A stretch of 38,842 bases of DNA from Phycisphaerae bacterium (lineage in GTDB: Bacteria; Planctomycetota; Phycisphaerae; Sedimentisphaerales; Anaerohalosphaeraceae): positions 1-38,842 of the forward strand of contig JAAYCR010000037.1 in the NCBI GenBank assembly GCA_012729675.1. The letters run 5' to 3'. Position 1 is the first letter of the stretch, and each line of letters opens with the position of its first letter. This document shows positions 19,905 to 25,251 of this stretch, in pieces. The position numbers and the translations under genes are program-made. The notes beneath the pieces are model-generated. The model was not told the origin of the DNA. It saw nothing but the letters and a program-made list of their open reading frames with translations, and ran no database searches.

Positions 19905-21323
19905 TTAACGGCGTTTTTTTCGCGGCGGCTTTTTGCGTTTGCTCCGCTGTTTGGTCTTGCCCGCCGCACTCATCGCGCTGAACATATCCGTTTTGCCGCT
20001 CATCATCCCTTTCAGTGCGTTCATCCCGCCGGCTCCGCCGCCGCTGATGGCCTTCATCATCTCCCGGCTGCGGCGAAACGTCTTGACCAGCCCGGCCACA
20101 TCCTGCGAGTCGCGGCCGCACCCGCGGGCGATCCGCCGCCTGCGCGAGGCGTCGATCAGATCCGGGTCGCTCCGCTCGGCGGCTGTCATCGAGTGGACAA
20201 TCCCCTCGATCTGGCTCATCTCCCGGTCGTCCACGTTCATCTCGCCAAGCCCGCCCATCCCCGGCAGCATCTTGAGCAGGCTCGAAAACCCGCCCATCTT
20301 CCGGACACTCTGCATCTGCTTTAAAAAATCATCGAACCCGAAGGTGCCCTTGGCCATCTTGACCTGCATCTTCTTGGCCTGCTCTTCGTCATACTGCTCT
20401 TGGGCCTTCTCGACCAGCGAGACAATATCGCCCATCCCCAGAATCCGCCCGGCCATTCGATCCGGGTGAAACTCCTCGATATTGTCAAGCTTCTCACCCA
20501 CGCCGATAAACTTAATCGGCTTGCCCGTGACCGCCTTGACGCTCAAGGCCGCCCCGCCGCGGGCGTCGCCGTCCAGCTTGGTCAAGATCACCCCGTCCAA
20601 CTCCAGACGGTCGTTGAATTCCTTGGCGCTGTTGACTGCATCCTGCCCAGTCATCGCATCGCACACCAAGAATATCTGATGCGGATTGGTCGCTTTTGAC
20701 ACGGCGGCAATCTCATTCATCATGTCTTCATCAACGTGCAGCCGCCCGGCCGTATCCAGCAGAACAACGTCGTAACCGCTTTGTTTTGCATGCTTTATAC
20801 CGTTTGTCGCAACACGGACAGCGTCCTTGACGCCATCTTCTTTATAGACCGCAATGCCAAGCTGCTCGCCCAGCGTGCACAACTGGTCAATAGCCGCAGG
20901 GCGCTGAAGGTCATTGGCCACCAGAAGCGGTTTTTTGTGATTCTTGTCACGCATGTACCGGGCCAGCTTGCCTGCGGTCGTGGTTTTACCCGACCCTTGC
21001 AAGCCTGCCAGCATCACAATCGTCGGCCCTGGGCTGACATAATACACCCGCGTATCGACCGGCCCCATCAGCCGGGTCAACTCATCCTGAACGATCTTGA
21101 CCATCACCTGTCCGGGGTGCAGGCTCTTGATGACCTCAGCCCCCATGGCCGCGGTCTGCACATCCTTGCAGAACTGCTTGACGACGTGATAGTTCACATC
21201 CGCCTCAAGCAGCGCCTTCCGCACATCCCGCATCGCATCCGAGATGTTCGCCTCGGTGATCTTGCCCCGGCCCGACAGCGACCGAAACACACCGTTCAGT
21301 TTTTGTGACAATGCATCAAACAC
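19905..21323 (-). CDS. ffh: Signal recognition particle GTPase Ffh
   Basis: The 472-residue product binds SRP RNA and signal sequences and docks with FtsY to deliver nascent chains to the translocon. Visible parts are an N-terminal helical bundle, the GTPase P-loop GLQGSGKTTTAGKLA, the DTAGRLHVDEDMM and TKLDGDARGGAALS motifs, GVGEKLDN, and a Met-rich M domain (residues about 300-440). The tail is strongly basic (TKQRSKRKKPPRKKRR). The RNA-binding motif of the M domain is near SRRRRIARGCGRDSQDV, where Gly-Cys-Gly replaces the more usual Gly-Ser/Thr-Gly. The start is GTG 21323 without a clear Shine-Dalgarno. It is followed by the coupled 102-aa gene. Confidence 0.96.
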   Translation of the reverse strand: MFDALSQKLNGVFRSLSGRGKITEANISDAMRDVRKALLEADVNYHVVKQFCKDVQTAAMGAEVIKSLHPGQVMVKIVQDELTRLMGPVDTRVYYVSPGPTIVMLAGLQGSGKTTTAGKLARYMRDKNHKKPLLVANDLQRPAAIDQLCTLGEQLGIAVYKEDGVKDAVRVATNGIKHAKQSGYDVVLLDTAGRLHVDEDMMNEIAAVSKATNPHQIFLVCDAMTGQDAVNSAKEFNDRLELDGVILTKLDGDARGGAALSVKAVTGKPIKFIGVGEKLDNIEEFHPDRMAGRILGMGDIVSLVEKAQEQYDEEQAKKMQVKMAKGTFGFDDFLKQMQSVRKMGGFSSLLKMLPGMGGLGEMNVDDREMSQIEGIVHSMTAAERSDPDLIDASRRRRIARGCGRDSQDVAGLVKTFRRSREMMKAISGGGAGGMNALKGMMSGKTDMFSAMSAAGKTKQRSKRKKPPRKKRR

Positions 21324-21484: not shown

Positions 21485-22996
21485 TCAATAGTCCTGCTCG
21501 GAGCTTCCAAAGATGACCCTGAAGGTGTTAAAATTGGGGACAATCGGGGCCATCGTCGGGCGGGGGCGAAAGGCCTGCGACCAATAGACCACCACGGCCT
21601 TACCCATCATATAATCGCGTGGGACAATACCCTTGCGGTAGCGCACGCCAAAATTACCAAGTCCCTCCATATCCCAAAGGCGGCTGTCGAGGCTGTTGGG
21701 GCTGTTGTCGCCGCAGACAAAAAACTCGTCATCCTCCAGCCGAAAAGGGCTGTTTTGTGTGGCCCGAATGCCGGGGTCTGTATAATGGATGTCGCGAAAC
21801 AGGCCAACATCGATGACGTCCAGACCACCGCCGCCGAAAAGTTGTACCTGCGGCGGCGTAACCTGTTCGCTTACACCGGCCAGGTCTTTATCATTGGCTA
21901 GGTCATACATGAACCGCTTTTGCCCCCACCGCAACACCAGTCGTCGATCCACATTGGCAAACTCAAAAGACTGGAACACGTCCGGCACAATGCCGTCGGT
22001 CAGGGTGCGTCGCAATTCCGTCCATCGCCCGTCCTGATATTTCAGAAAGCTAACCGCGCCGTGAAATTCGACCCTGACGCCATAGAGTATGCCGTATTTT
22101 TCCAGAACGGCTCCGACAAAACTCGCGTGGTCACGCCCTTTGACCTGGAACTGCAGCATCAGGTCACTGCACATCGGCATCGTCGAGAACGAACCGCTGT
22201 CGTTATAGCCATAGATGGAGCGAAACACATCGTGATGGCTGGGTTCATACACAAGGGTGTGTATCCTATTATCCGATTCATTCAGCCCGAAATGGGCGGG
22301 GTAATCGGCATCAAACATCCAGTAGGAGTCTTCTTCGTTGACAAATGGCTGCCGCCATTGGCGCTGTCGGCGTTGTCTTTGCGCTACTTCGGTCGGCTGC
22401 ATACCGGGAGACGGCTGATAGGTCTGACGATAAATCGGCATCCACAGCTCCTGCTGGACATTGAGGGGCTTTCGGACAATGCGACTGTCGATATAGATAT
22501 CGCCGTCGATGATCTGCACGGCCTCGCCGGGCAGGCCAATGAGCCGTTTGATGTAGTTGTCTTTCGGATTGATAGGGTTTTTGAAGACGACCACGTCCCA
22601 GCGGCGCGGCTCGAAGAACTGATAGATGCACTTGAGAACAAAGACGCGGTCGCCGTTGACCATCTGCCCGATGGACCGGCTCGGCTGCAATTGGCCGCAG
22701 AGGGGACACTGGGGCAGATCAATCGACAACGAGTCGGACCCCGTGTCAAAGACCCAGCCGCAATGCAGGCAGCGCATCCGGTAATGATCGCCGCGAAGCG
22801 TCTCGGCCATGCTGCCGGTGGGAATCTGAAAGGCCTGAATGGCGAACGCCTGAAACACCAGCGCCAGAATGAACGCCACCAGCAGCCAGTCCAGCAGCGT
22901 AACAACCCCCTCGACGGTACTATGAAACCGCCGCCGGAAACTGCCCAACGTCATCGGGCTTGGACGCTCTGTCAGGTCTTCGTGATCTTGTGTCAT
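21485..22996 (-). CDS. lepB: Signal peptidase I paralogue with zinc ribbon (LepB-1)
   Basis: Membrane serine/lysine protease that removes Sec signal peptides. After one membrane segment (about residues 33-57) comes the catalytic Ser box IPTGSMAETLRG (Ser62), then an inserted CxxC...CxxC zinc ribbon (Cys76, 79, 97, 100), then the Lys box NYIKRLIGLPGE (Lys150), and much later the GDNS/DSR box (FFVCGDNSPNSLDSRLW). At 503 residues it is about twice the usual length. The extra mass is the zinc ribbon plus a roughly 200-residue beta-rich insert before GDNS. ATG 22996 is preferred over TTG 23008 because of Shine-Dalgarno spacing. It lies directly downstream of a second paralogue. Confidence 0.9.
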   Translation of the reverse strand: MTQDHEDLTERPSPMTLGSFRRRFHSTVEGVVTLLDWLLVAFILALVFQAFAIQAFQIPTGSMAETLRGDHYRMRCLHCGWVFDTGSDSLSIDLPQCPLCGQLQPSRSIGQMVNGDRVFVLKCIYQFFEPRRWDVVVFKNPINPKDNYIKRLIGLPGEAVQIIDGDIYIDSRIVRKPLNVQQELWMPIYRQTYQPSPGMQPTEVAQRQRRQRQWRQPFVNEEDSYWMFDADYPAHFGLNESDNRIHTLVYEPSHHDVFRSIYGYNDSGSFSTMPMCSDLMLQFQVKGRDHASFVGAVLEKYGILYGVRVEFHGAVSFLKYQDGRWTELRRTLTDGIVPDVFQSFEFANVDRRLVLRWGQKRFMYDLANDKDLAGVSEQVTPPQVQLFGGGGLDVIDVGLFRDIHYTDPGIRATQNSPFRLEDDEFFVCGDNSPNSLDSRLWDMEGLGNFGVRYRKGIVPRDYMMGKAVVVYWSQAFRPRPTMAPIVPNFNTFRVIFGSSEQDY

Positions 22997-23070
22997 CGTT
23001 GCGCTCAACTCTTAATAAAGAAAAAGAAAACGGCGCCTTTAAAACGGCGGCAATGCCGCAAAACACGCCG

Positions 23071-23105
23071 CTTACCTTTTGCCTTTTCCCTTTTACCTTT
23101 TTACT
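23071..23105. repeat. Heptamer array abutting the LepB-2 stop codon
   Basis: CTTACCT, TTTGCCT, TTTCCCT, TTTACCT and TTTTACT run in perfect 7-nt register and end on the base adjacent to the LepB-2 stop codon (23106-23108). They fill part of the gap between the two lepB genes. Confidence 0.85.
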
Positions 23106-24662
23106 TTATTTTCCGCCGTAGATAAACTTCATTCCGTCCGGGGCGGGGATCCAGCGGAGCGGTTCCTGTCCCAGTCGCCAGCCGCCCGGCCAGTGCACAA
23201 AAACGGCCTTGCCGACCAAGTATCCGCGCGGCACGATGCCGGGCGGGTATTCGAGGCCGTTGTTGCCGATGCCGGGGCCTCTCCACAGGCGGGAATCGCT
23301 GCTGGCGGGACTGTTGTCGCCGCAGGCAAAGAATTCATCCTTGCCCAAGGTCAGCGGCTCGGCCTCCGTCGCGCGATAGCCCTCAAGATAATGAATATCA
23401 CGGTACAGGCCGATATGGCGAAGCTGCACCACACCCCTGCCGGCCAGTTCGACGACCGGTTCGATATGCCGGTCCGTGCCGGCAGCATCCGGGGCCAGGC
23501 CGAGGTCATATGTGATTTGCGCATCGCCGTATTCGAGCCGCAGCAGATGATCTGCATTGGCAAAGCGAAACAGTTTGGCTCCGGCACCCACGTCCGCCAA
23601 CCCTTCGGCCAGGGTTTCGGCCGTCCCTTCGGGGCTGATGCGAAGTATCGCCGTTCGCCCGTCGGCATAGACCCAGCCCTCGTAAGCGATACCGTATTTG
23701 CCGAGGCGCACCCCAAATGCCGACTCGTCGCCGATTTGGGCGTAACACCGCACCATCAGATCGCTGCATACGGGTAGCTGTCCGTAATGAGCCGGGTCGT
23801 CATAGGCATACGTGGCTCGAAAACCATTGCCGACAGCGGTATTGTACCGTGCCCGGCTGACCGCCCCGCCCGCATCGTCCAGGGTAAAGACGAACGGCCC
23901 GTCGGCGGCCAGATCCCACGTGCCGCCGAGGCGATTTTCGAAGGGCTGCCGCCAAGAGTGCCCGTTGAAGCGTGTTTCGGCCGGCAGAACCGGCTGATAG
24001 TCGTTGTCATAGACGACCATCCATAATTCTTCCTGCACGGCATCGGGTTTTCGGGCGATTTGACCGTCAATATAAACATCCCCGTCGATGAGTTGTACCG
24101 TTTCGCCGGGCCTTGCAATCAACCGCTTGATATAATTGATTTGCGGCTCCTGCGGATTCTTGAAAACGATGACGTCCCACCGCTTTGGCTCGAAGAACTG
24201 GTAGATACATTTGAGGACGAATATCTGATCGCCCTTGAAAACCGTCTGCAGCTTTCCGGGCTGGACTTTGTCGCCGCGACTAATATACGGCTTGCCGCCG
24301 GATATCTGCACGGCAGGCTCCTGATAGCCGCAACTCGGACAGCGCGGCGGCGTCGGGGCAATCAGCACCTCGCGCGAAGGCGTTACATTCGGGGGGACGT
24401 TATAAAGCTCCTGATAGACATGCTGCAGGAAGTCGTAATCGTAGCGATAGCCGCACTGCTGACAGCGCATGCGGAAATGCGCCCCCCGCAGGGTCTCGGC
24501 CATACTGCCGGTCGGGATGCGATACACCTGCATCACAAAAAAGATAAACACCAGCGTCCCGGCAAAGGCCGTGATGAGCCATTCAAGGGTATGGTAAGCG
24601 CCGTCTATTTTTTTAGTGACGGCGGAATCGATTGGACTTTGATTGTCTTTTTTATAGTGCAA
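23106..24662 (-). CDS. lepB: Signal peptidase I paralogue with zinc ribbon (LepB-2)
   Basis: Second LepB of the tandem pair, 518 residues. The order is a membrane segment (about 25-47), the Ser box IPTGSMAETLRG (Ser53), CxxC (67, 70) and CPSC (108, 111) separated by about 37 residues, the Lys box INYIKRLIARPGE (Lys179), a long variable insert, and FFACGDNSPASSDSRLW near the C-terminus. Both catalytic residues are kept, so both paralogues should be active. Blocks shared with LepB-1, such as FVLKCIYQFFEP, show descent from one duplication. The start is TTG 24662, preceded by GGAA at about 8 nt. A strong promoter candidate lies upstream. Different substrate ranges for the two enzymes are inferred. 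Confidence 0.9.
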   Translation of the reverse strand: MHYKKDNQSPIDSAVTKKIDGAYHTLEWLITAFAGTLVFIFFVMQVYRIPTGSMAETLRGAHFRMRCQQCGYRYDYDFLQHVYQELYNVPPNVTPSREVLIAPTPPRCPSCGYQEPAVQISGGKPYISRGDKVQPGKLQTVFKGDQIFVLKCIYQFFEPKRWDVIVFKNPQEPQINYIKRLIARPGETVQLIDGDVYIDGQIARKPDAVQEELWMVVYDNDYQPVLPAETRFNGHSWRQPFENRLGGTWDLAADGPFVFTLDDAGGAVSRARYNTAVGNGFRATYAYDDPAHYGQLPVCSDLMVRCYAQIGDESAFGVRLGKYGIAYEGWVYADGRTAILRISPEGTAETLAEGLADVGAGAKLFRFANADHLLRLEYGDAQITYDLGLAPDAAGTDRHIEPVVELAGRGVVQLRHIGLYRDIHYLEGYRATEAEPLTLGKDEFFACGDNSPASSDSRLWRGPGIGNNGLEYPPGIVPRGYLVGKAVFVHWPGGWRLGQEPLRWIPAPDGMKFIYGGK

Positions 24663-24942: not shown

Positions 24943-25251
24943 ATGGCAACAATCACAAAGAAAGAACTCATTGATCGAATTGCCGATGCGACTCAGGCCA
25001 AGCGGGTAGTCGTCAAGCGGATTGTTCAGTCTTTTCTGGATGAGATCGTTTCCGAACTGGCCTCGGACAATCGCCTTGAATTCCGGGATTTCGGGGTCTT
25101 TGAGACCCGGAATCGAAACGCCCGCGTTGCACAGAACCCCAAGACACTCGAACGGGTCAAGGTGCCGTCCAAAAGAAGCGTCAAGTTCAAAATGGGCCGG
25201 ATGATGAAAGAAAAGCTTTCGACCGACTCAGCCGTCGCCAAACAGGCATAG
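24943..25251 (+). CDS. HU/IHF-family nucleoid protein
   Basis: The 102-residue product is a DNABII-family DNA-bending dimer protein. It opens MATITKKELIDRIADATQAK, has the dimerisation helices, the RLEFRDFGVFETR segment, and a beta-arm region containing ARVAQNPKTLERVKVPSKRSVKFKMG with the conserved Asn-Pro. The Ala/Lys-containing tail is slightly longer than in typical 90-residue HU. The ATG has AGAGG about 8 nt upstream. It is divergent from the lepB pair and is followed by the cold-shock gene after about 113 nt. HU versus IHF-like function cannot be decided from sequence. Confidence 0.93.
   Translation: MATITKKELIDRIADATQAKRVVVKRIVQSFLDEIVSELASDNRLEFRDFGVFETRNRNARVAQNPKTLERVKVPSKRSVKFKMGRMMKEKLSTDSAVAKQA

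Follow-up and report, generated by a model that had tools for sequence, protein, structure and literature searches.

A putative zinc ribbon next to the catalytic serine of tandem signal peptidases in Planctomycetota

Most bacteria cannot live without signal peptidase I, a drug target whose structure is commonly regarded as a single simple fold. What, then, could be the role of a four-cysteine module placed directly behind the catalytic serine of two neighbouring LepB paralogues, each of which also carries a long β-rich insert? This question is raised by a locus of a Phycisphaerae bacterium (GCA_012729675.1; assembly of 2.8 Mb, 99.9% complete), located on contig JAAYCR010000037.1 within the window analyzed here, i.e. 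the whole stretch of 38,842 nucleotides. Both open reading frames proposed in an earlier sequence-only reading of the window were found on the minus strand (Table 1), P0002 upstream and P0001 downstream, separated by a gap of 97 bp. Their products are 46% identical and were both matched by NCBIfam signal peptidase I. Since no third Peptidase_S26 protein was found in the whole assembly, the general cleavage of signal peptides in this bacterium appears to fall entirely to P0001 and P0002. Additional, separate short S26 proteins occur in some relatives (the L021 and L024 genomes, and G057); of these, L134 and L135 were read, and both are ribbonless LepBs of the canonical kind.

Table 1. Features of the tandem lepB locus (positions in the window)
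Feature	Position	Strand	Evidence
LepB paralogue P0001, type I signal peptidase, 507 aa	21485..23008	-	Peptidase_S26 8e-33, TIGR02227 over cut-off
LepB paralogue P0002, type I signal peptidase, 518 aa	23106..24662	-	Peptidase_S26 4e-29
Divergent HU-type gene, conserved neighbour upstream of lepB	24943..25251	+	Bac_DNA_binding 3e-26
N-terminal transmembrane helix of P0001, residues 31-58	22835..22918	-	AF2 model
N-terminal transmembrane helix of P0002, residues 13-43	24534..24626	-	AF2 model
Catalytic Ser66 of P0001	22811..22813	-	Column is Ser in 144/146 aligned homologues
Catalytic Lys154 of P0001	22547..22549	-	Column is Lys in 144/146 aligned homologues
Catalytic Ser53 of P0002	24504..24506	-	Invariant in 111-row alignment
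Catalytic Lys179 of P0002	24126..24128	-	Invariant in 111-row alignment
Putative zinc-type ribbon of P0001, residues 75-117 (C80, C83, C101, C104)	22658..22786	-	Cys quartet
Putative zinc-type ribbon of P0002, residues 62-121 (C67, C70, C108, C111)	24300..24479	-	AF2 pLDDT ~92-97
Predicted ConA/CBM66-like jelly roll of P0001, ~residues 184-411	21776..22459	-	AF2, Foldseek CBM66 and lectin matches
Predicted ConA/CBM66-like jelly roll of P0002, residues 209-427	23382..24038	-	VIA-align

The Ffh (SRP54) gene (19905-21323, same strand) lies directly downstream of the LepB pair and is followed by the genes for S16 and TrmD. A linkage of ffh to the pair was considered and dropped, as ffh was not next to lepB in the relatives whose loci were fetched.

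The conserved boxes and the predicted fold show P0001 and P0002 to be genuine type I signal peptidases (S26A), and cleavage activity is predicted for both. In each protein an IPTGSM Ser box follows one transmembrane helix, and an NYIKRL Lys box and the C-terminal box CGDNSP(N/A)SxDSRLW are present; the Ser/Lys catalytic pair, recognized already in the sequence-only reading, is retained almost throughout the aligned homologues (Table 1). The helix of P0001 is preceded by RRR, which by a positive-inside reading would orient it with the N terminus inside, and a single helix of this orientation would place all downstream parts of the protein in the periplasm. The AF2 model of P0002, built from a 111-sequence alignment, reached a pLDDT of 94 and a pTM of 0.90. 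Its best structural match was E. coli LepB (Z 11.5, rmsd 2.2 Å over 144 residues, 33% identity), spanning the model range 43-515.

Past the Lys box and ahead of the last boxes, at the site of domain II of E. coli LepB, both paralogues carry a long insert, whose β-rich character had been proposed and was borne out by the models, which predict a two-sheet jelly roll. In P0002 this part matched CBM66 (4azz; Z 10.5, 151 residues, rmsd 2.7; VIA-align) as well as ERGIC-53 and legume lectins (Z ~10). In P0001 the pLDDT was 92-96 in blocks from ~280 to 370 and mixed in the range 220-280. Botulinum-toxin entries in the fold lists were set aside, as they share only the lectin-like jelly roll. The claim that the two proteins are twice the usual size holds in comparison with the short LepBs of relatives, whose open frames are 236-263 aa long, but not with E. 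coli LepB, which they exceed only ~1.6-fold.

The four-cysteine module is located between the Ser box and the conserved GDrifV box in both paralogues. The quartet of P0001 reads C80xxC83-x17-C101xxC104 and that of P0002 C67xxC70-x37-C108xxC111, so that the pairs are separated by 17 and 37 residues, respectively, a difference correctly noted before; the longer loop of P0002 contains a helix. Structure prediction of both ribbons gave an uneven result. In P0002, DSSP of the high-confidence model placed C67/C70 in a hairpin between strands 62-66 and 73-77, and C108/C111 between bridges at 107 and 113-114, i.e. two knuckles, while the ribbon of P0001, modelled from only 34 sequences, had a low pLDDT of 46-65.

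To what kind of domain the module belongs is suggested by profile matches. The four Cys are the sole invariant positions among 30 diverse ribbons, and Pfam Zn_ribbon_4 matched 21 of these ribbons at E ≤ 0.1 (best 2.4e-6), although the zinc-ribbon Pfam matches were mostly under the curated cut-offs. The P0001 segment was under all of them, its match to Zn_ribbon_8 (1.7e-4) included. NCBIfam matches of ribbon members were of the MJ0042 and FmdB types, and a ribbon profile compared with the PDB retrieved the LysW ribbon at 2.5e-5. Together, the topology, the register of the first Cys relative to the catalytic Ser (see below), the family matches and the two-knuckle model of P0002 support a ribbon of the zinc-binding type on the trans side of the membrane, adjoining the catalytic Ser, in agreement with the earlier proposal of an outer-face position next to the active site.

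To survey the module across the phylum, sampling was started from 246 genomes and loci were read from 94; the sample comprised 146 LepB homologues, exclusively from Planctomycetota. As the loci were picked among the better matches, the following fractions are biased upward: the insert after the Ser box was absent in 38 of the 146, and its 108 bearers had all four Cys in 96 cases, none in eight and a part of them in four; at least one ribbon-bearing LepB was found in 23 of the 52 sampled family groups. Among the 34 close homologues the quartet is invariant. Judged from these alignments, the four-Cys module is a recurrent element of LepBs across much of Planctomycetota; a search for it in other LepB proteins of planctomycetes had been proposed in the sequence-only reading. 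The distance from the catalytic Ser to the first Cys was 14 residues in 97 of 97 proteins, while the number of residues between the Cys pairs ranged from 14 to 75; thus, the first knuckle seems to be held at a fixed distance from the nucleophile, and the loop between the pairs to be free to vary in length. In a tree calculated without the ribbon columns, in which the deep branches are weak, the states without insert, with a Cys-less insert and with a ribbon changed at least nine times. Plasmid-borne homologues aligned only from residue 117 on, past the ribbon, and are a weak negative for its presence. Giant LepB fusions of 1,000-1,900 aa, suggested by open-frame lengths, were rejected as upstream over-extension in GC-rich genomes, where neighbouring frames overlap.

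Several lineages carry more than one such unit. The LepBs of family groups f48 (L065, L101, L127, L129, L131) and f76 (L064, L094) have an extra CxxC...CxxC directly before the catalytic Lys, and in f48 the ribbon after the Ser is doubled, giving three units in all. Hydrazine synthase alpha was found in seven of the eight f48/f76 genomes tested, which identifies these as anammox bacteria. In the 2010 description of Kuenenia, the anammox LepB was listed only as a single-copy component of the canonical Sec system, and its ribbon was not mentioned (PMC2881027). In the close relatives L023 and L024 the ribbon itself is duplicated, with four CxxC pairs in a 113-residue segment after the Ser. In one further LepB (L066:1615-2856), which lacks the ribbon at the Ser box, a CxxC...CxxC unit lies within the domain II insert.

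How did the pair arise, and does it reflect a division of labour? In the tree, the P0001-type and P0002-type proteins fall into two distinct clades (support 98 and 96); each has eight rows, drawn from the same eight genomes. By this topology, a single duplication would have taken place no later than in the ancestor of the eight tandem genomes. A divergent HU-type gene was found near lepB in the loci of 27 relatives, including those with a single lepB copy, so the duplication probably happened in place. The residues between the Cys pairs number 17 in all eight P0001-type ribbons and 32-37 in all eight of the P0002 type, and the loop length is therefore best regarded as an inherited mark of each paralogue. 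Family groups f24 and f30 have tandem lepB pairs of their own, and so does f71, where the partner is divergent. In the f30 pairs (L052-L055, L060), one copy has an ISTGSM-type box and both have ribbons; we assign these pairs to an older or independent duplication.

The sequence-only reading had taken the unequal spacing as a sign of divided labour. This argument does not hold, since the spacing, constant within each paralogue clade, spans 14-75 residues in single-copy homologues and so says little about function. That the paralogues have divided the substrates between them, each accepting signal peptides according to its ribbon loop, is nevertheless a possible reading, if not one that we would bet on. 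Both copies and both loop classes are kept in all eight tandem genomes found, and the residue two before PTGS, which corresponds to E. coli Gln85 of the S2-S5 subsites (PMC2259416), is by eye mostly Gln in the P0001 clade and mostly Arg in the P0002 clade. However, the S1-pocket residues of P0001 and P0002 look alike, and the loop range among the single-copy relatives argues against the loops as determinants of specificity.

The nature of the four-Cys site can be approached through the proteins that have lost it. The segment is kept without Cys in groups f4, f7 and f71 and in single members of f5 and f6; for example, GRHKDVVDEYSGYEYTVGAS stands against GRHKDVVCPQCGVEYEVGAS in a relative, with the flanking residues retained. 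A conserved His before the first knuckle is retained in nine of the ten insert-bearing proteins without the first Cys (the tenth is gapped there), and is thus unlikely to be a metal ligand. In f71 (L056, L057) two LepB-like genes are adjacent, the main copy without the ribbon Cys and a shorter, divergent copy with them; we describe these neighbours, by their Cys content, as a C-/C+ pair. The joint loss of the four Cys, together with the homology to zinc ribbons, favours their clustering in space. A search for DsbA, DsbB and VKOR gave no match in this nearly complete genome (controls matched in other genomes), and a ZnuA-like zinc-uptake protein of the ZnuA family is encoded there. Loss of the Cys as a unit from a segment that is kept, and the missing DsbA, DsbB and VKOR matches, make a structural metal site more plausible than a redox sensor; metal binding is predicted. 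The Cys-less lineages show that, where they occur, such a metal would be dispensable.

These observations bear on other readings of the quartet. Cysteines in the periplasm are frequently disulfide-bonded, and the all-or-none pattern would also fit two linked structural disulfides in place of a metal site; we consider this unlikely, as the spacing, the CP.CG motifs and the hairpin knuckles agree with zinc ribbons, and the lack of any match to a known disulfide-forming pathway (DsbA, DsbB, VKOR) in this genome weakens disulfides and redox sensing alike. There is also a slim chance that the general signal peptidase of Planctomycetota is a metalloprotein whose zinc ribbon, positioned at Ser+14 and tripled in anammox bacteria with one unit beside the catalytic Lys, selects preproteins or makes cleavage depend on metal status; copies free of Cys would then be a metal-independent version, comparable to that of C+/C- ribosomal proteins. 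Sensing of redox state, which the sequence-only reading had raised, or of metal, would have oxidation or zinc loss alter LepB activity and so couple export to envelope conditions. The CxxC pairs near the nucleophile, the site on the trans side and the different loops of the two paralogues would suit a sensor, but besides the absence of DsbA, DsbB and VKOR matches, the joint loss of all four Cys from a retained segment would hardly be tolerable for one, and the doubling or tripling of ribbons in some lineages is more typical of structural modules; a sensor is, in our opinion, very unlikely. Finally, a non-functional, neutrally maintained decoration, suggested by the insert being missing from roughly half of the family groups sampled and lost or degenerate in others, is highly improbable given that 96 of 108 inserts retain the quartet and that Ser+14 is invariant across deeply diverged sequences, in which neutral loops would drift in length.

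The account that we favour, and judge to be probable as a whole, is of two genuine peptidases with a structural zinc ribbon as a rigid rim and a jelly-roll domain II, derived from an in-place duplication. A single structural Zn(II) would be bound by the four Cys in a zinc ribbon of the classical type, which would take the place of the tight turn that otherwise leads from the Ser box into the following strand. In E. coli LepB, the S1 pocket is lined by Ser90, Met91, Leu95, Tyr143, Ile144 and Lys145 (PMC2259416). The equivalent of Leu95 in P0001 is L71, and the ribbon starts only about four residues further on, at about residue 75; it therefore probably borders the cleft on its signal-peptide side, at the face towards the membrane. 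The jelly roll would replace domain II and face the side where the mature portion of the substrate lies. Neither a catalytic nor a redox element, the ribbon would most likely serve as a rigid accessory surface, by which the S1/S3 region is ordered and the preprotein or the Sec translocon might be docked. One duplication at the HU-lepB locus would then have produced the pair, in which the different ribbon loop lengths were subsequently fixed.

Planctomycetota have unusual cell plans, and a sizeable share of the phylum seems to have rebuilt the rim of the signal peptidase active site with a putative metal module and to have exchanged domain II for a lectin-like fold. In anammox bacteria, a LepB with three ribbons must do the work for anammoxosome and periplasm alike. 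The ribbon LepBs offer a concrete handle on how planctomycetes recognize and sort exported proteins. No description of a zinc ribbon in signal peptidase I was found in open-access papers.

Among the closest known systems is E. coli LepB (MEROPS S26A; PDB 1B12, 1T7D), which shares the Ser/Lys dyad, the order of the boxes, the catalytic fold and the insertion point of the second domain. It differs in that, in the alignment, its Ser box runs straight to the GD box without a ribbon, and its domain II is smaller and is not matched by the jelly roll. E. coli LepB also has two transmembrane helices, compared to one in P0001 and P0002. The jelly roll of P0002 resembles CBM66 and L-type lectins in fold (Z ~10), by which it is recognized here, but shares only 5-14% sequence identity with them. 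The CxxCG...CPxCG hairpin knuckles and the quartet are those of the Zn_ribbon_4, MJ0042 and FmdB ribbons and of LysW. These are free-standing, cytoplasmic or regulatory domains, whereas the LepB ribbon is predicted to be an insertion within a protease core on the trans side. Among the C+/C- zinc ribosomal proteins (e.g. S4), a four-Cys zinc site has disappeared as a unit from a domain that persists, and some genomes encode both forms (PMC3087516). The LepB ribbon shows the same unit loss with retention of the domain, the f71 neighbours included; the proteins are unrelated and the parallel is one of Cys pattern, and as such it points to a structural metal site in the LepB ribbon.
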